From Candidatus Gastranaerophilales bacterium (lineage in GTDB: Bacteria > Cyanobacteriota > Vampirovibrionia > Gastranaerophilales > Gastranaerophilaceae), in NCBI GenBank assembly GCA_905235155.1, contig CAJOKJ010000011.1, forward strand, positions 62,001 through 126,000: a DNA stretch of 64,000 bases, in the 5' to 3' direction. Numbering within the stretch: the first letter of the stretch is position 1; each line of letters opens with the position of its first letter. The translations under genes and the position numbers were made by a program. Shown here in pieces: positions 52,036 to 64,000 of this stretch. The notes beneath the pieces were generated by a model. The model worked only from the letters and a program-made list of their open reading frames with translations, did no database searches and was not told the origin of the DNA.

Positions 52036-52773
52036 TTAGTCGCAAGCAGTTTTATCCTTAGCCCAACTTAATGTTATATTAGAGTTATTGTTACATACGT
52101 GAGCATCAGTTGCTTTTCTGTAATCTAAATTGCCATTATAAATAACCCATGCTGTACATCCTGCACCACCAGCAGCTTTACAGTTGGTAAAAGTTGCTTT
52201 ATTATCTGCTTCTGTACCGGCAGGATAAATACCTGTTGTTGTTATCCAAAAGTTAAATTCATCAATACCTTGAGTATTTTTACCATTATAACTGTCAACA
52301 TCTATAACTACTGAACCGCAAGTTTTTGCTAACGCAGGAGTATTTCCAACTGCTTTTGCACAGTTTGAGTCAAAAATATTTACACCTATTGCGGTTCCAT
52401 CTGCCAAAATTGCAGAATATCCGGGAGTACCACTGGCAGCACCTTCATTAGTTAAAGTATTTGCAGTTCCTGAACATGTTGCTGCACCGTTACACTCTTT
52501 TGATAATTTCATATTAGCTGCTAAACGGTGTCCTAAAGTATTTGATGCAATATTGGTTGTTGACCAATCAGTTAATTCGCCATGTTGAGCAACCATTCTG
52601 CCAAATGCGTCATCAAGGTTTGCATGTGTCTTTCTAACTTTAGCAACAATATCTTTACTATTTGTGCTGTTTGTTAATGAAGGAATTGTCAGTGCTGCCA
52701 CAACACCTATAATACCCATTACGATTAGTGTTTCTGCTAATGTAAACGCAGTAAATTTTCTAATTTTTGTCAT
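52036..52773 (-). CDS. Type IV pilin/type II secretion pseudopilin-like protein
   Basis: The 245-aa protein has a prepilin-type N-terminus: MTKIRKFTA, then FTLAETLIVMGIIGVVAALT with Glu at +5 after the likely cut. The residue before the cut is Ala rather than the usual Gly. After the helix come KVRKTHANLDDAFGRMVAQH and a Cys-rich C-terminal domain of about nine Cys (for example CNGAATCSGT; NCKAAGGAGCTAW). It should be processed by a prepilin peptidase and assembled into a pilus or pseudopilus. It has its own AAGGAGAGT site. Confidence 0.85.
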   Translation of the reverse strand: MTKIRKFTAFTLAETLIVMGIIGVVAALTIPSLTNSTNSKDIVAKVRKTHANLDDAFGRMVAQHGELTDWSTTNIASNTLGHRLAANMKLSKECNGAATCSGTANTLTNEGAASGTPGYSAILADGTAIGVNIFDSNCAKAVGNTPALAKTCGSVVIDVDSYNGKNTQGIDEFNFWITTTGIYPAGTEADNKATFTNCKAAGGAGCTAWVIYNGNLDYRKATDAHVCNNNSNITLSWAKDKTACD

Positions 52774-52874
52774 ATAAAGACTCTCCTTTTATGCCAGTCA
52801 TGCTACTTACTTGTATAATAGCATATATTAATATATTTTTCAATATATAATACTAAAGTATTAACACTTTTTAA

Positions 52875-53606
52875 TTATTTTTCTTTTTCAAACAATGCAC
52901 CTTTACCGTATAAAACTCTTGCCGTGCAGCCGAATACATTTGTTTTTACGCTTTTAACGCAATCACCTTCTTTATACGGGAATGTTTTATCTCCGTCAGT
53001 ACCTGTCGGTATTATACCGTCACGAGTGATGTAGAATAAGAATAAATCTTGTCCGTATAAATTTTTATTTTTACCTTTTTGCGTGTTAAAAATATCAGTA
53101 TATGCAGTACCGCAAACCTGCTTTAAGTACAATGGTGCAACAGTTGAACCTTCTGTTACGTCAATTTTGCAGTCAGGGTCTTCTATTTGAAAAGCATAAG
53201 AAAATCCGTCAAATGCTATAAATTTATATACATTATTGCTTGTACAAGCATTAACAGCAGTTTTGTCTTTTGCCTTGTATAAACTTGGACATCCGGGAAT
53301 ACAGTCATTTACGGCTGTTAAATTATTTCTCGTCTGGCAATTCACACCTAAACTTACATTGTTTACAACTCTGTCACCATATATTTGTGTGTTTACTTCA
53401 TTCCAGTCTATCATAGAACCGTGTTTTGCAACTGCCCGTTCATAAGCATTTGACATAATGGAATATGCTTTTTTAACTTTTAATATGGTTTCTCGTCCAT
53501 AAGAATCTTGCATTACAATAGGTATTGTGAATGCTGCAATGACACCGATTACTACTAATGCAAACAGTGCTTCGCCTAAAGTAAACGCTTTATTCTTTTT
53601 TAACAT
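52875..53606 (-). CDS. Type IV pilin/type II secretion pseudopilin-like protein
   Basis: The 243-aa protein begins MLKKNKAFTLGEALFALVVI, a prepilin motif with Ala before the cut and Glu at +5, followed by GVIAAFTIPIVMQDSYGRET. The shared segment KVKKAYSIMSNAYERAVAKH matches the neighbour at 52036, so the two are paralogues. Several Cys lie in NCQTRNNLTAVNDCIPGCPS and KQVCGTAY. The late GTDGDKTFPY may bind calcium. The two genes are 100 bp apart and probably have separate promoters. Confidence 0.85.
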   Translation of the reverse strand: MLKKNKAFTLGEALFALVVIGVIAAFTIPIVMQDSYGRETILKVKKAYSIMSNAYERAVAKHGSMIDWNEVNTQIYGDRVVNNVSLGVNCQTRNNLTAVNDCIPGCPSLYKAKDKTAVNACTSNNVYKFIAFDGFSYAFQIEDPDCKIDVTEGSTVAPLYLKQVCGTAYTDIFNTQKGKNKNLYGQDLFLFYITRDGIIPTGTDGDKTFPYKEGDCVKSVKTNVFGCTARVLYGKGALFEKEK

Positions 53607-57723: not shown

Positions 57724-58092
57724 ATGGGATTTATTCACTGTTGCAGCGGATTTAGATGTTGTAAAACTTATGAATTAAAATCCGATGAAAAATACAAATA
57801 TAAAGAATTAGATTATCTGGAATGTTGTCCTGTTTGTGAGCATACCATATTGCAGCTTACGAGAATTGACTACAATAATAAAATTTCTGTATATCGATTG
57901 ATAAATAAAAAAGCAAAAAAATTTTTTGAAAAATATCAAAAGGATATAGTAAGCGAAATAAAAGATTATGACAGTTCATACTTGTTAAATTATGGTAAAT
58001 TTTACTTAAATTATAATGAATACGGAAAAAAGAAAAAATGTTTTTCAAATTTAAGTTCAATGAAACTGGGATTATTTGAAAACGGATATTAA
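57724..58092 (+). CDS. Cys-rich zinc-ribbon-like protein (phage-linked)
   Basis: The ATG follows AAAAGGAG. The 122-aa protein starts GFIHCCSGFRCCKTYEL and continues LDYLECCPVCEHTILQLTRI. The paired Cys could form a zinc ribbon, with CCPVC as the second knuckle. The C-terminal half is Lys/Tyr-rich (KKAKKFFEKYQKDIVSEIKD). I recognise no family. It is the first gene of the putative prophage and shares its strand. It may bind DNA or phage proteins. Confidence 0.65.
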   Translation: MGFIHCCSGFRCCKTYELKSDEKYKYKELDYLECCPVCEHTILQLTRIDYNNKISVYRLINKKAKKFFEKYQKDIVSEIKDYDSSYLLNYGKFYLNYNEYGKKKKCFSNLSSMKLGLFENGY

Positions 58093-58167: not shown

Positions 58168-58365
58168 ATGGTGTTAAGCAAGCAAGAGAATGCAGTTATA
58201 ACACTGCTTTGTCAAGGTTTTTGTTGTAAAGAAATTTCGGATAAATTACAAATATCGCCAAGAACCGTAGAAACATACATAGAAAGATTAATGTATAAAC
58301 TTAGAGCCAGAAATCGTTTGGAATTAGTAGCGATTTATGTCAGACAATATGAAAGGTTAAAGTAA
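58168..58365 (+). CDS. LuxR-type (GerE) HTH protein
   Basis: The 65-aa protein is a bare LuxR/GerE DNA-binding domain: LSKQENAVITLLCQGFCCKE, ISDKLQISPRTVETYIERLM, then YKLRARNRLELVAIYV. There is no receiver or ligand domain. AAGGAAATATAA precedes the ATG. It lies immediately (1 nt) before the endolysin gene, so it is part of the phage operon and probably acts as its regulator. The same fold also occurs in sigma-70 region 4. Confidence 0.88.
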   Translation: MVLSKQENAVITLLCQGFCCKEISDKLQISPRTVETYIERLMYKLRARNRLELVAIYVRQYERLK

Positions 58366-58366
58366 T

Positions 58367-58858
58367 ATGAAGCGTATTATTATACATTGGACAGCCGGAG
58401 GTGCTGTCCCTAATGTTCATGAAAAAAATTGTTATCATTATTTGATAGATAGTTTAGGAAAAATTTATGAAGGAACATTTAAACCTCAAGCAAACGAGCA
58501 TTGTTTAAAAGGACAATATGCGGCTCATACGGGAGGAGGTAATACAGGTTCAATCGGAGTTTCACTTTGCGGAATGCAAGGATTTAAAAATAAAAACAAT
58601 ATTGGTATTTATCCGATAACCAAAGTTCAATTTGAAGCAGCAATGCAATTATGTGCAAAACTCTGCAAAGAGTTTAATATACAAATTACTAAAAATACTG
58701 TATTAACTCATTATGAATTTGGTTTAACTCATCCTTCAACAACCAGTGCAGGAAAGATAGATATAATTTATCTCCCGCCTTATTCTTGGGTTGAAAAAGA
58801 GTCAATAGGCGATTTTATTCGAACAAAAATCAGATGGTATTTTCAAAAATTAAATTAG
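58367..58858 (+). CDS. Phage endolysin, Amidase_2/PGRP-type N-acetylmuramoyl-L-alanine amidase
   Basis: This 163-aa amidase has the first zinc His in RIIIHWTAGG. GSIGVSLCGMQGFKN and the second His in VLTHYEFGLTHPST follow. The third ligand is probably the Asp in SAGKIDIIYLPPY. A Tyr-containing NCYHYLIDSLGKIYEGT segment matches the family. There is no signal peptide, so release would need a holin. It ends 9 nt before the next phage gene. It hydrolyses the bond between MurNAc and L-Ala. Confidence 0.9.
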   Translation: MKRIIIHWTAGGAVPNVHEKNCYHYLIDSLGKIYEGTFKPQANEHCLKGQYAAHTGGGNTGSIGVSLCGMQGFKNKNNIGIYPITKVQFEAAMQLCAKLCKEFNIQITKNTVLTHYEFGLTHPSTTSAGKIDIIYLPPYSWVEKESIGDFIRTKIRWYFQKLN

Positions 58859-58867
58859 GAGAAAACA

Positions 58868-60379
58868 ATGGAAAATTTTTATTACAGTCTTTCCGGAGGT
58901 ATAAATCAAGCCTCAACAAAGACAGAGCTTGGGCTGCGTACAAAAAATTTGTTTTGGGCAGATTCAAAAAATGTAGAAATATATAGAAATAGAGGTGTTA
59001 TAAGACAAAAAGGAAATACTATATTTACGCATTTGCCACAAGAAGAAGGCATAACGGTAATTCATGAAATGAAAGCAGGTAATGAATATAAATTAATAAT
59101 TGCAACGGAAAATGGTAATTTGTATGTCTATAATGAAGATTTAGAATATCCTGTTTTACTGAATAAAACTATAAATTCCTTAAAGCCTGTATTTACGAAT
59201 TTTTTAAACGGAACAATCGTATCAAGTGATTCTGATGAAATGTTTTATATAAAAAATAATTCATCTTATGACATAGTTGAATGTAATTTACATAAATCAG
59301 ACAACACTCCAATTTATGCAAATGTTGTAGCAATTTATAAAGGCAGAGTTTGGGCAGCAGAAGGTGCTTCGATTTATTTTTCTGCATTAGGTAAATTTGA
59401 TGATTTTTCAACAGCAAATGATGCAGGATATATAAGTAATTTTTATACTGATACCGATGAAATTACAGCATTATGTTCATATAAAGATTATCTTGCCATA
59501 TACAAAGATAAAAAAGTATACCTTTTATCAGGTTCATCACCAAGTGATTTCAGTGTAATTCCATTTGCAGATAAAGGTGCTTATTCAGCAAAAAGTGTTG
59601 TAAACGTAAATAACAGACAATATTTTTATTCATCAGGTATATATTCACTTGAGGTTGGGGCATTAAATCAAATTTTACTTGGCAGTGAAATTACCGAAAA
59701 TATAAAAGAAGAATTCAAATATTTTGATTTTTTACGTAAAAGGGAAGTTTTTGCTTTAAACTATGATACAAAAAATCAAGTTTGGTATTTTATTCCTTAT
59801 GTCAATGATGAGTATTTTCACACAATATGGATAAATGATATTATAAATAATGCTTGGTATAAAAGAGTTTTGCCTCAGAATATTACATCTGCTTGTAATT
59901 ATAAAAATTTTATTCTTACAGCAGATAAAAAAGGTTTTATATACAGAGAAGACGTAAATAATACTTTTGCGGGTGAACCAATAGAGTTTATGTGGAAGTC
60001 CCCATTCTTAGGACTTGGTAATCCTACAATCAGAAAAACGATAGATGAATTTTATTTTGTTCTGGATGAAGCACACGAAAATAATTTTAATTTTTCCGTG
60101 TATAAAAATTTTGATGCGGAAAATAGAGATGATATGGAAAAAATATATTCAAATAATTTAGAAAATCTTGTCTGGTATAAAGATGACAGCGAAATTCTGA
60201 TGAATTCCAATTGGTCTGACGAGCAAGAAGCTATATGGGCTTTGGATACGGAAGGTATTTATAAGGCAGAAATTTCGGAAGCAAATTATTCAATACAAAT
60301 TTGTGTTGAAGGCGACAGTATAGAGCATAATACTGCAATTATAGGTATACAGTTTAAAGAAATTTTTAACGAAGATTAG
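58868..60379 (+). CDS. Phage tail/head-completion protein, P22 gp10-like
   Basis: The 503-aa protein begins MENFYYSLSGGINQASTKTE and has repeating beta-propeller-like units such as LIIATENGNLYVYNEDLEY and LAIYKDKKVYLLSGSSPSDF. VWYFIPYVNDEYFHTIWIND follows. The pattern resembles packaged-DNA stabilisation (gp10-type) tail accessory proteins of podoviruses. Similarity is by fold pattern and position next to the coat gene, so confidence is moderate. AGGAGAAAACA precedes the ATG. An adhesin or other tail protein is possible. Confidence 0.6.
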   Translation: MENFYYSLSGGINQASTKTELGLRTKNLFWADSKNVEIYRNRGVIRQKGNTIFTHLPQEEGITVIHEMKAGNEYKLIIATENGNLYVYNEDLEYPVLLNKTINSLKPVFTNFLNGTIVSSDSDEMFYIKNNSSYDIVECNLHKSDNTPIYANVVAIYKGRVWAAEGASIYFSALGKFDDFSTANDAGYISNFYTDTDEITALCSYKDYLAIYKDKKVYLLSGSSPSDFSVIPFADKGAYSAKSVVNVNNRQYFYSSGIYSLEVGALNQILLGSEITENIKEEFKYFDFLRKREVFALNYDTKNQVWYFIPYVNDEYFHTIWINDIINNAWYKRVLPQNITSACNYKNFILTADKKGFIYREDVNNTFAGEPIEFMWKSPFLGLGNPTIRKTIDEFYFVLDEAHENNFNFSVYKNFDAENRDDMEKIYSNNLENLVWYKDDSEILMNSNWSDEQEAIWALDTEGIYKAEISEANYSIQICVEGDSIEHNTAIIGIQFKEIFNED

Positions 60380-60423
60380 TAAAATCTTCTGAAATAGTAC
60401 AAAAAAAGAAAGGAAACAAGAAA

Positions 60424-61398
60424 ATGACAGAAAATCAATCAGCAGCAACACCGGTACAAACAGCAGAACAAAAAAATTCTTATTCTGCTTTTATTCCAGA
60501 AATATGGAGTAAAAAATTAAACGCAATTTTGGAAAAAAATTGCGTGATGATGCAATGTGTAAACCGAAACTATGAAGGTGATATTCAAAATCAAGGTGAC
60601 AAAGTAAGAATTATTACTCCGGCAGATGTAACAATTTCAACAGTAAGTAATGAAAACTTATCTTATAGCGAATTAGAGCCTACATCAATGGATTTGACAA
60701 TTGACCAAAAGAAATATTTTGCATTCAAAATAAATGATGTAGCACAAGCACAAGCAAATCAAGATATTATGCTGGCACATCTCGAAAACGCAAGACGTGC
60801 AATTGAGGAAGTACAAGATTCATTCTTATTGGGAATGCATACAGACGTTGAAGAAGCAAATACTGTTGGTAGTGAAGAAGAAGCAATTGTTTTGAATAAA
60901 TCAACTATATATGCACAATTTGTAGAGTTAGCAATGAAATTAAAAAATGCAAATGCACTAACTGGTAACAAAAAACCTTGGGTAATTATTAATCCCACAA
61001 TTGAATCGTACTTATTGCAAAGTACCGAATTCATTGGTGCACATAACGTTGCTGATGAAACAATAAGAGAAGGGGCAATTGGAAGAATTGCCGGCATGGA
61101 TGTTCTTGTAAGTACAAATTTAACATCTACTTCGGGTCTGTTTTATGTTCTTGCCGGTACAAATGATGCAATTACTTTTGCTTCTCAATTGGCAAAAATT
61201 GAAAGTTTAAGAGATAAAGATTCTTTTGCAGATTTAGTAAGAGGTTTATATTTATACGGAGCAAAAACAGTTCAGCCGAAAGCATTGGCAAAAATGGTTG
61301 TTGCTGATCCTTCATCAGTTGAAGATTCAACTTCATCAGAAACAACAGAACCTTTAGGCGAAGACGAAAATGATACCATAAATGGTGGTGAAGGCTAA
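60424..61398 (+). CDS. Major capsid (coat) protein, P22 type
   Basis: The 324-aa protein shows features of the P22 coat protein family (HK97 fold). These include SAFIPEIWSKKLNAILEKNC, CVNRNYEGDIQNQGDKVRII, LTIDQKKYFAFKINDVAQAQ and WVIINPTIESYLLQS. FASQLAKIESLRDKDSFADL follows, and the C-terminal tail is acidic (EPLGEDENDTINGGEG). The strong AAAGGAAACAAG ribosome site and a downstream terminator fit a highly expressed structural gene. Confidence 0.85.
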   Translation: MTENQSAATPVQTAEQKNSYSAFIPEIWSKKLNAILEKNCVMMQCVNRNYEGDIQNQGDKVRIITPADVTISTVSNENLSYSELEPTSMDLTIDQKKYFAFKINDVAQAQANQDIMLAHLENARRAIEEVQDSFLLGMHTDVEEANTVGSEEEAIVLNKSTIYAQFVELAMKLKNANALTGNKKPWVIINPTIESYLLQSTEFIGAHNVADETIREGAIGRIAGMDVLVSTNLTSTSGLFYVLAGTNDAITFASQLAKIESLRDKDSFADLVRGLYLYGAKTVQPKALAKMVVADPSSVEDSTSSETTEPLGEDENDTINGGEG

Positions 61399-61432
61399 AA
61401 TTTTAACTACCCGTTATTATACATATTACCCC

Positions 61433-61462
61433 CGACGCAGATTTAATCTGCGTCGATTTTTT
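61433..61462 (+). terminator. Terminator or attenuator after the coat gene
   Basis: CGACGCAGAT / ATCTGCGTCG, a perfect 10-bp stem with a 3-nt loop, is followed by ATTTTTT. It lies inside the phage operon. Partial read-through would lower expression of the later genes relative to the coat protein. Confidence 0.82.
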
Positions 61463-61472
61463 AGGAGAAATA

Positions 61473-61682
61473 ATGTTTAAAAATTTAAAAAATACAATAA
61501 AAGACTTAGCATATTTAGCGGTTAATTATGCCGAAAATAAATTATCAGAAAGTTCAGGACAAGAAAAAAAACAATTAGCAATAAATTATATTGTAAATAA
61601 ACTGGCTATTTCACCTGTTTTTAAACCTTTTTTGATAATTATTTTTAGCAATTTTATTGATAAATCAATAGAAAAAGTATGA
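61473..61682 (+). CDS. 69-aa phage protein with C-terminal hydrophobic segment
   Basis: ATG 61473 follows AGGAG, 10 nt after the terminator T-run. The protein has an amphipathic helical N-terminus (LKNTIKDLAYLAVNYAENKL). A hydrophobic stretch (ISPVFKPFLIIIFSNFI) follows that could enter a membrane. One such helix could suit a holin or a small head protein, but no family is recognised. Confidence 0.58.
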   Translation: MFKNLKNTIKDLAYLAVNYAENKLSESSGQEKKQLAINYIVNKLAISPVFKPFLIIIFSNFIDKSIEKV

Positions 61683-61708
61683 AACAATTAAATAATGAGG
61701 ATTAACAA

Positions 61709-62395
61709 ATGTCAGAAGAAATAAACGAAGCAACATCTTTAACCGAATCAAAAGAAGCGGATTTGGAAAAAAAAGACTTAGATATAAAAGCACAAATTGA
61801 AGAAAAACTCGACACTAAAGTTGAAGAAAAAGAAAATAATCACAAAGTGAGAAATGATTTTAAAGAAAATTTGAATGCTCTTCAAAATCTTTTAAATTCA
61901 GGTTTAGTAACCCAACAGCAAGGACAAAATTTATTGAACCATATAATCAGGACGGCACTTGATAGTAATACACAAAATTCTACGTTGGATGAAAAATCTA
62001 AAACAGTTTGTGATAAAACAGCGGCTTTTGAAGAATTTGAAAAGGAAAAACCGGCTTTTTTCTCGGCAGAAGGTCGTTCTGATTTGTTAAAATATCTAAA
62101 ATCCGATGAGATAAATTTTGATAAGGATGAACTTTCTAAAATTGCAAAAATTGTTGAACAAGTAGAAAAATCAGCAATTGACAGGTATTTAAAGAAAGCA
62201 GCACACGATGAAAGTTTGGTAAAATTTAATTCCGAAGCTAAGCAGCGTCTAAAAGCAAATGCTCAAAAATCACAAAACAGCGGAAATCAAGCCTTGTCTT
62301 TTACTCGTGAGCAAATCGGTAAAATGACTACTGATGAGTTTTTAAAAAATGAAAAAGCAATTATGGACCAATTAAAAAAAGGTCTAATCAAGTAG
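61709..62395 (+). CDS. Phage scaffold-like protein
   Basis: The 228-aa protein is acidic, Lys/Glu-rich and helical, without Trp, as scaffolding proteins are. The N-terminus is disordered (EATSLTESKEADLEKKDLDI). A middle part reads NLLNSGLVTQQQGQNLLNHI. The C-terminus ends SFTREQIGKMTTDEFLKNEK, then QLKKGLIK, a tail I associate with phage scaffold or portal-adjacent proteins. It lies after the coat gene, while scaffold genes usually precede the coat. Confidence is moderate. Confidence 0.6.
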   Translation: MSEEINEATSLTESKEADLEKKDLDIKAQIEEKLDTKVEEKENNHKVRNDFKENLNALQNLLNSGLVTQQQGQNLLNHIIRTALDSNTQNSTLDEKSKTVCDKTAAFEEFEKEKPAFFSAEGRSDLLKYLKSDEINFDKDELSKIAKIVEQVEKSAIDRYLKKAAHDESLVKFNSEAKQRLKANAQKSQNSGNQALSFTREQIGKMTTDEFLKNEKAIMDQLKKGLIK

Positions 62396-62452
62396 CAGTA
62401 ATTTAATGGCAGCAAGACTAATGTTTTGCTGCCTGTATCAATAGGAGTAAAA

Positions 62453-63094
62453 ATGAATTATCTTGAAATAATAAATAAGTGTTTAGTAGAACTAAATTAT
62501 AAAAAAGTAACTAAATTTGAAGAATTGGTTAAAAACGACCACCAAAAAATTAAAAATATATTGAATATTATAAATGCAGAAATTTGCACATTTGATAACT
62601 GGAATTTTTTATTACGAAAGCAGACACTGCTTTTACCTGCAAATTCCGCAGAAATAATTAATACAGTAAACGGAAAAATTCATACGCTAAGTATAGACGG
62701 TAAAAAATTAAATTATACCCCTGATTTTGAAGGTCTTTTATTATCAAGCGGTAATTCATCTTCGGTATATGGCGTGTTAAATGATGTATTAATTTTACCA
62801 AAATATGATAAACAAAAGAATGTAGAAGTTATATATTATACAAATAACTTTGTAAAAGATGAGGACGGTAATGAAAAAGCAAGGCTGGAAGTTGCAACTG
62901 ATGAACCTTTAATACCTCAACCTTTTGTTGAACCCCTTTTGATTTACGGTACTTGCATGAAAATAAAGGCAAATCCGCAATATAGTAAATTTTCTTATTG
63001 GATGAGTATGTACAAAGAAAATCTTGCTACAATGCGTTCAAAGCTTTGCACTGATGTCCAACAAAGTCCTTGTATCGTACTTAAAAGAATTTAA
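62453..63094 (+). CDS. Head-tail connector, P22 gp4-like
   Basis: The start is ATG 62453 (MNYLEIINKCLVELNYKKVT, 213 aa) after AGGAGTAAAA; the track adds 9 residues. The pattern of an N-terminal helix bundle followed by NWNFLLRKQTLLLPANSAEI and a beta part (VEVIYYTNNFVKDEDGNEKA) is consistent. The C-terminal helix is EPLLIYGTCMKIKANPQYSK. Together these resemble gp4-type adaptor proteins that join portal and tail in podoviruses. This is by remembered resemblance and context only. Confidence 0.55.
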   Translation: MNYLEIINKCLVELNYKKVTKFEELVKNDHQKIKNILNIINAEICTFDNWNFLLRKQTLLLPANSAEIINTVNGKIHTLSIDGKKLNYTPDFEGLLLSSGNSSSVYGVLNDVLILPKYDKQKNVEVIYYTNNFVKDEDGNEKARLEVATDEPLIPQPFVEPLLIYGTCMKIKANPQYSKFSYWMSMYKENLATMRSKLCTDVQQSPCIVLKRI

Positions 63095-63230
63095 TAAAAT
63101 AAAACAAAAAAATAGGCCAAACAAAAGTTCTGCCTACTAATAAGATTTTACACTAGCCGAAATATAAATAGCATATTAATAATATTAAATTGAAATTTTA
63201 AAGGCAAATATATTAAGAGTTCTTAACATT

Positions 63231-63659
63231 ATGAAAAAATTAACATTACAGCAAAAAAAATTTGTAACTGAATATTTAAAAAATCTTGATGGAGAAATTG
63301 CAGCCAAAAATGCGGGTTATAAAAGTAACAATTTAAAATCCGTTTCTGAGGATTTACTGTCAAGAGATTATATAATTCGTGAATTAAACAGACAATTAAA
63401 TAATCAAATAAAAACATTGCATGTTCAAAGAGGTTATGTAGTAAAAAAACTTCTTCAGATAGCTGAATTTTCACTTGCAGAAGAAGATGTTTTGGATAAA
63501 GAAGGTAATCCGACAGGCAAAAAGAAATTACGAGATACTTCTGCTGCTCTCAAGGCACTGGATAGCTTGTGTAAATATCTTTTCCAAAAGGATGATTTAA
63601 ATACAGATTTAGAAGCAAAAATAATAACAATAAGCAATTTAAACGATAAAAAAATATAA
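63231..63659 (+). CDS. Phage terminase small subunit
   Basis: The 142-aa protein starts MKKLTLQQKKFVTEYLKNLD, then GEIAAKNAGYKSNNLKSVSE and LLSRDYIIRELNRQ. This is the Terminase_2 family helix-turn-helix that recognises packaging sites on phage DNA. The C-terminal part ALKALDSLCKYLFQKDD is typical. The large subunit should follow soon, beyond or at the window edge. It is preceded by a 136-base gap with no gene, in which I see only an AT-rich region and a weak 5-bp hairpin. Confidence 0.86.
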   Translation: MKKLTLQQKKFVTEYLKNLDGEIAAKNAGYKSNNLKSVSEDLLSRDYIIRELNRQLNNQIKTLHVQRGYVVKKLLQIAEFSLAEEDVLDKEGNPTGKKKLRDTSAALKALDSLCKYLFQKDDLNTDLEAKIITISNLNDKKI

Positions 63660-63670
63660 AGGAGATAATT

Positions 63671-64000
63671 ATGAAGAACAAAAAACAATTTGTAGAAGAT
63701 GCATTACTTTCAGGAAAACGTATTGATGAATTAATAAAAATTAAAATGCAAGAAGAAATAAAACAGGCATTTAAAAAAGTTTCAACAAAATTTATAAAGA
63801 AAAAAGTACATAGTATAAAGGAAGTACCAACAAAATACATTTTTAGCAAAAATGCCGTATTCAAAAAATACAACAAAAACAACAATACGGTTAGTTTTAT
63901 TAACGGAATGCAAGCAGAGGCAATGCTTGGTTTAGATAATATTTCCAGAGAAAAACTGTTAAAAGGTGAAATTGATGTTTTTTCAACAGAAAATTCATTT
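63671..64000 (+). CDS. Phage protein, cut by window end
   Basis: Not in the track because it has no stop in the window. ATG 63671 follows AAAGGAGATAATT, 11 nt after the terminase stop. The visible 110 residues are Lys-rich: QFVEDALLSGKRIDELIKI, FKKVSTKFIKKKVHSIKEVP and SFINGMQAEAMLGLDNISRE. I recognise no family. No Walker A motif is seen yet, so it is not obviously the large terminase subunit. Confidence 0.7.
   Translation, partial: MKNKKQFVEDALLSGKRIDELIKIKMQEEIKQAFKKVSTKFIKKKVHSIKEVPTKYIFSKNAVFKKYNKNNNTVSFINGMQAEAMLGLDNISREKLLKGEIDVFSTENSF

Follow-up and report, generated by a model that had tools for sequence, protein, structure and literature searches.

The end of the 64,000-nucleotide stretch of DNA analysed here (the window; G000:C11:62001-126000 in our numbering) carries a run of phage-like head, tail and lysis genes in the genome of a Candidatus Gastranaerophilales bacterium. 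We conclude that this locus is probably a domesticated, vertically inherited module for gene transfer agent (GTA)-like particles, of podovirus-like architecture, in the Gastranaerophilales. A preliminary description of the same DNA had suggested a new lineage of phages. We favour a domesticated module over an infecting phage because the locus occurs nearly always once per genome, carries no genes for integration or replication, follows its hosts at the level of genera and lies between conserved host neighbours.

Gene content, order and host flanks

Seven open reading frames (ORFs), all on the + strand, occupy 58367-63659 in the order previously described. Together with the genes beside them, the features of the locus are:

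57724..58092, +: u122, a small conserved protein of no family; at the module's left end in many loci, in some others missing or diverged
58168..58365, +: LuxR-type helix-turn-helix (HTH) protein, 65 aa, likely regulator (PF00196, E=5e-17)
58367..58858, +: N-acetylmuramoyl-L-alanine amidase, the endolysin (PF01510, E=1e-15; phrog_5867 endolysin, 3e-36)
58868..60379, +: tail nozzle / beta-propeller hub, in the role of P22 gp10 (AlphaFold2 model and Foldseek)
60424..61398, +: major capsid protein, the coat (phrog_267 'major head protein', E=9e-56)
61473..61682, +: holin, 69 aa (phrog_6918, 7e-5; PF09682, 7e-5)
61709..62395, +: scaffolding protein (position and C-terminal domain, alignment A5)
62294..62392, +: C-terminal domain of the scaffold, ~35 aa, recurring as a tag (hidden Markov model (HMM) matches, E 1e-17 to 1e-5)
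62426..63094, +: head-tail adaptor of T7 gp11 type (model and Foldseek matches to podovirus adaptors)
63105..63178, -: candidate host small RNA gene (core 63150-63173; conserved core and terminator-like 3' hairpin; the ends are estimates)
63231..63659, +: small terminase, TerS (PF03592, 9e-13; phrog_51, 1e-14)
63671..64000, +: X122, a conserved module protein running to 64039 beyond the window; same position in nearly all module loci

The podovirus-type character of these genes, part of the earlier proposal, is upheld by family scans and by the folds of two proteins. Sequence searches of the PDB with profiles of the nozzle, the adaptor and the large terminase (TerL) returned no matches, and nozzle and adaptor were therefore compared by fold, using Foldseek and AlphaFold2 models built from 20-row alignments. 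The nozzle model (pLDDT 77, pTM 0.79) matched the tail nozzles of Pa223 (E=3e-19), VP1 and P22 gp10 (8eap_D, E=1.5e-15, TM 0.65/0.69), in agreement with its original designation as gp10-like. The protein designated gp4-like does have the role of an adaptor by structure; its model (pLDDT 87) matched the adaptors of cyanophage A4, Pa223, VP1, SU10 and T7 gp11, implying a fold of the T7 gp11 type, and its family scans were weak (phrog_6013 tail protein, 1e-6; PF17212 Tube, 3e-3). The ORF listed simply as a small protein can now be named as the holin, with a PF09682 score slightly below the Pfam cut-off. A coat profile (A4) matched the major capsid protein 8e16 in the PDB at 1e-29; the closest coat relative in phage records, at 46% identity, belongs to the 274-kb Microcystis phage MaAM05 (MW495066.1:212675-213478). 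Family scans gave no confident match for the scaffold, which we identify by its position and by a C-terminal domain that it has in common with ORFs immediately 5' of the coat gene in related phages.

Including the genes beyond the window, the module reads u122 - LuxR - amidase - nozzle - coat - holin - scaffold - adaptor - TerS - X122 - GNAT - [cargo] - portal - [cargo] - TerL - [cargo] - p76, on a single strand throughout and over about 11 kb excluding cargo. The LuxR-type gene is the first or second gene in nearly all loci. The order was rightly called unusual: coat precedes scaffold, and portal and TerL come last. Recurrence of this order in about 30 contigs of viral collections and about 60 genome-contig loci rules out chance. 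Nor has an ordinary phage order been circularly permuted, a possibility raised at the outset, because in many genomes the module is flanked left and right by host genes. Among 52 further loci that have a related coat, 33 carry the scaffold C-terminal signature at the end of the ORF immediately 5' of the coat gene, which is the ordinary scaffold-coat order; coat before scaffold is therefore the derived state.

Some variants were seen. In genus g12 (L259-L261 and other loci) the space between amidase and coat holds no recognisable nozzle; GNAT is absent or diverged, as are holin and p76 in some of these loci. Genus g19 (L218, L237-L239) has a related module arranged differently: it opens with nozzle and adaptor, which are followed by coat-scaffold, TerS, portal, TerL and p76. 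More distant TerL variants, in different gene orders, occur in g15 (L220-L222, L232-L236) and g26 (L217, L243).

Host genes border the module, on the left a ZIP transporter and/or a radical SAM (rSAM) protein, on the right MGLAA and SecA, or rpsP, f8 or others; in g2, g6, g8, g11 and g12, ZIP or rSAM on the left is paired with MGLAA-SecA on the right. We considered MGLAA, a large protein on the right-hand border, as a part of the module and rejected it. It still adjoins SecA in genomes that have no module, and is therefore treated as host flank. In genome G024, all ORFs of more than 110 aa between ZIP/rSAM and MGLAA-SecA were accounted for, and no integrase, replication or repressor gene was among those from ZIP to SecA. 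What lies between the host flanks is thus a cluster of structural and packaging genes without replication or integration genes, as is expected of a GTA.

The preliminary description had looked ahead to portal, large terminase and integrase past position 64000. Contig C11 continues to 134801 with X122, 8xMP (opposite strand), a GNAT acetyltransferase gene split by a frameshift (L001:8544-9054), DUF6973 genes, the portal, and toxin-like and membrane-protein cassettes up to the contig end. The portal (SU10_portal, 8e-21) lies at L001:10908-12569, or 66908-68569 in the window's frame. TerL is on a different contig, C23, as two ORFs (L327:264-1001 and 1027-1572) separated by a one-base frameshift near L327:1001; behind it lie genes for a tagged protein, tm199 and p76. 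The module has no integrase. Near the module, two prepilin-like genes (window 52036-53606, minus strand) encode N-termini with FTLAETL and FTLGEAL.

Distribution, inheritance and selection

The distribution of the module was followed in 286 genomes of Gastranaerophilales, mostly metagenome-assembled. A TerL profile (A1) matched 173 of them, and 113 have the module's own TerL variant, nearly always in one copy and without internal stops among the matches listed; among the genomes listed, those of genera g5, g14, g17 and g18 gave no match to the profile. Relatives of the locus also come from Candidatus Gastranaerophilales, which bears out the assignment of the host to this order of Vampirovibrionia. 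All genera represented by two or more genomes are monophyletic in a tree built from eight concatenated module proteins, and module distances correlate with those of RpoB (Mantel r=0.69, p=0.0005; 24 genomes). Deep branching agrees incompletely, with 10 of 22 bipartitions common to the module and RpoB trees. Coat, portal, TerL and nozzle are under purifying selection: the ratio of nonsynonymous to synonymous change (dN/dS) is mostly 0.02-0.14, with dS near saturation. Genus monophyly, the Mantel correlation, dN/dS and the host flanks together give the vertical inheritance and purifying selection characteristic of a GTA. The module is also cleanly absent from some relatives: in the g6 genomes G063, G118 and G197 the locus reads ZIP - f31 - MGLAA - SecA, with nothing of the module in between. 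Its history is one of inheritance with occasional loss and rearrangement.

These results bear on two other explanations. An ordinary, very compact temperate podovirus, the proposed new lineage, could be common in these hosts by chance. The set of core virion and lysis genes is complete, IMG/VR counts loci of this kind among its viral contigs, and other TerL variants or extra TerL copies in the order resemble real prophages; the extra copies of G152 and G098 (L228, L229) lie in apparently ordinary prophages with the order TerL-portal-coat. We nevertheless regard this explanation as unlikely, given some 11 kb without integrase, replication or repressor genes, host flanks conserved across genera, near-single copy, genus-level congruence and the clean absence from relatives. 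On our reading, viral-contig collections contain parts of a host-inherited module. The other explanation, a defective prophage remnant drifting towards loss, fits the frameshifts in TerL and GNAT of the window's genome, the loss of the module in some species and the g12 loci in which no nozzle is recognisable. The intact ORFs, and the low dN/dS across genera at near-saturated dS, contradict it for the whole family, and we consider it highly improbable, although it may apply to single genomes.

The gap between adaptor and TerS (63095-63230) holds a 24-nt core, ACACTAGCCGAAATATAAATAGCA (window 63150-63173), that is single-copy in 176 of the 286 genomes (a few have two matches), whereas the reversed control gave 0 matches. 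This ultra-conserved core probably marks a minus-strand RNA of about 65 nt, whose features include a -10 box and a terminator-like hairpin varying by clade. An Rfam scan of the region gave chance-level matches only and no family for the small RNA, and consensus folding of its alignment yielded no covariation support. The core is also present in genomes without the module, where it still adjoins MGLAA. It looks like a host gene lodged inside the module, and is as such a further sign that the module is a chromosomal fixture.

A scaffold-derived tag and its putative cargo

The scaffold ends in a near-invariant domain of about 35 aa, FTREQIGKM..xEF.KNE..IM.QL.KGLIK. An HMM built from 79 distinct scaffold tails was run against 4194 ORFs. 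At E<1e-4 it matched only scaffolds, module cargo (DUF6973, lipase-like f3, P2_327 and GH108 proteins) and the ORF 5' of the coat gene in other phages, with matches in effector families reaching E 1e-17. The tag often occurs in two copies per protein, and many tagged genes found by whole-genome search are unlinked to the module; G000 has four tagged ORFs beyond those on the window's contig, one of them adjoining TerL on C23. Among the tagged proteins are GH108 muramidases, Lipase_3 hydrolases and proteins with PBECR1 nuclease, LPD3 or DUF6973 domains. Pfam scans found no MuF domain (PF04233/PF06152) in them, and the scaffold and the DUF6973 cargo have no close phage relatives within the phage collection.

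Tag and module occur together. Every one of the 113 module genomes has a tag match and 90 have more than one; the corresponding figures for the 173 non-module genomes are 20 and 4. Three of those four multi-tag genomes (g26, g27) have a related TerL, with a related coat in both loci read. The g26 genomes are rich in tagged ORFs, with 8 and 16 matches to the tag.

Tagged proteins also differ from their neighbours in their N-termini: a hydrophobic N-terminus was seen in none of 49 tagged proteins (one of which is a phage scaffold, not an effector) and in 30 of 38 neighbouring f4 proteins. This contrast would be expected if tagged proteins load in the cytoplasm and the f4 proteins are exported immunity proteins. 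Behind the portal, L001:12544-16495 holds a tagged P2_327, the membrane proteins tm199 and tm206, an f4 pair and an orphan fragment of a P2_327 C-terminus, an array resembling toxin-immunity cassettes.

Taken together, these data suggest that effectors may be loaded into the particle via the scaffold tag. In the fuller form of this proposal, to which we give an even chance, cargo loading is natural: effectors encoded across the chromosome are fused to one or two scaffold C-terminal coat-binding domains, and other cells receive protein, and probably host DNA, from the particles. In our main reading, the LuxR-type regulator would activate the operon; coat and scaffold would build a procapsid on the portal, into which TerS and TerL would pump DNA. 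Because the module has no genes for propagating a genome, this would be host DNA. During assembly, tag-bearing muramidases, lipases, PBECR nucleases and DUF6973 proteins would be drawn into the procapsid; adaptor and nozzle would close the head, holin and amidase would lyse the producer, and the tagged cargo would then be carried to recipient cells.

Several points weigh against the interpretation as a GTA-like module with tagged cargo. Particle production, DNA content, cargo loading, delivery and regulation are predictions from the gene sequences. Right-hand host neighbours vary by genus (SecA, rpsP, f8), implying that the locus has at times been rearranged or moved. No receptor-binding protein was found in the module, nor the needle anticipated earlier, and no search was made for a second locus with tail-fibre or receptor-binding genes. 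The frameshifts of TerL and GNAT in the window's genome may be decay or assembly errors. TerS retains its N-terminal HTH-type region (Terminase_2), conserved across 24 genomes, so it does not have the GTA-type loss of the DNA-binding domain; that loss is an RcGTA/FpGTA-type feature, not established as defining all GTAs. About 20% of module genomes (23 of 113) have the scaffold tag only, and tagged cargo is therefore not obligatory. Finally, the Fisher test of tag-module co-occurrence (p = 3e-59) ignores shared ancestry.

The last two points touch on rival readings of the tag. The domain could be a general protein-protein module with no role in encapsidation, its co-occurrence with the capsid stemming from shared ancestry of the hosts; the counts are uncorrected for phylogeny, and some tags are N-terminal or internal. 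We think this rather unlikely, since related phages have the same signature at the scaffold C-terminus, and since within g6 the module genomes are tagged and the module-less ones untagged at E<=1e-5, as they are within g1 (G005 without module against G000, G003 and G004). Alternatively, a domesticated capsid might mainly carry effectors, as a killing or signalling particle, with DNA packaging incidental. The tagged effector families, the toxin-like fragments and putative immunity genes around portal and TerL, and the confinement of unlinked tagged genes to capsid-bearing genomes all speak for such a particle; the conservation of TerL, TerS and portal under strong constraint, and the genomes with no tag except the scaffold's, speak against it, and we judge it a minority possibility. 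A GTA-like module remains our preferred reading.

Comparison with known systems

Of known systems, FpGTA of Faecalibacterium prausnitzii comes nearest; it is a podovirus-like operon of 10.5 kb whose particles, about 40 nm across, carry 8.4-8.9 kb of host DNA (PMC12946183). It is present in all examined strains of its genus, its lysis and tail genes form a second operon, and its TerS is described as having no obvious DNA-binding domain (PMC12946183). Compared by description, the two are alike in operon size, podovirus-like head genes, the set of TerS, TerL, portal, scaffold and coat, the lack of replication genes and a gut host. They differ in phylum, in the lysis genes, which head the main module here, and in TerS, with its HTH-type region here. 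The Gastranaerophilales module is accordingly GTA-like, not a proven GTA. If our reading is true, it would extend GTA-like particles to the non-photosynthetic gut relatives of Cyanobacteria, for which the literature searched names none, and add a second podovirus-type GTA-like family after FpGTA; our search for a GTA or prophage of Gastranaerophilales returned nothing relevant.

RcGTA of Alphaproteobacteria resembles the module in vertical inheritance, a single cluster, purifying selection and host control. RcGTA is siphovirus-like, whereas the module has a podovirus-type nozzle and adaptor, a scaffold and cargo tags. P22-like podoviruses have in common with it the gp10 nozzle fold and the roles of scaffold, adaptor and portal. 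Their order, terminase-portal-scaffold-coat-gp4-gp10, is not that of the module, which is fixed otherwise in about 60 loci; the coat is of phrog_267, with no match to the P22 coat family (PF11651) anywhere in the window's genome, the portal is of SU10 type, the adaptor of T7 gp11 type, and integration and replication genes are absent. A cf-PICI (capsid-forming phage satellite) would bring an integrase, replication genes and an att site, none of which lies between the host flanks; the module is, moreover, almost always present just once per genome.

For the putative cargo, MuF polymorphic toxins, common in the gut, link toxin domains to phage head genes (PMC5576092). The tagged proteins differ in that the link is the scaffold C-terminal domain, in place of MuF, and in that many tagged genes are unlinked to the module. 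Polyvalent proteins, which are thought to be packaged in virions, are known to contain PBECR1 and LPD3 (PMC5512222). Both domains recur here, but with a defined scaffold-derived tag, scattered genes and a domesticated capsid. If the tag does direct loading, it would be a readable signal of particle-borne proteins, and effector content could be found by sequence search. In engineered P22 particles, the C-terminal segment of the scaffold, fused to other proteins, serves as a cargo-loading signal; here, judging by sequence, such a tag appears to be natural.

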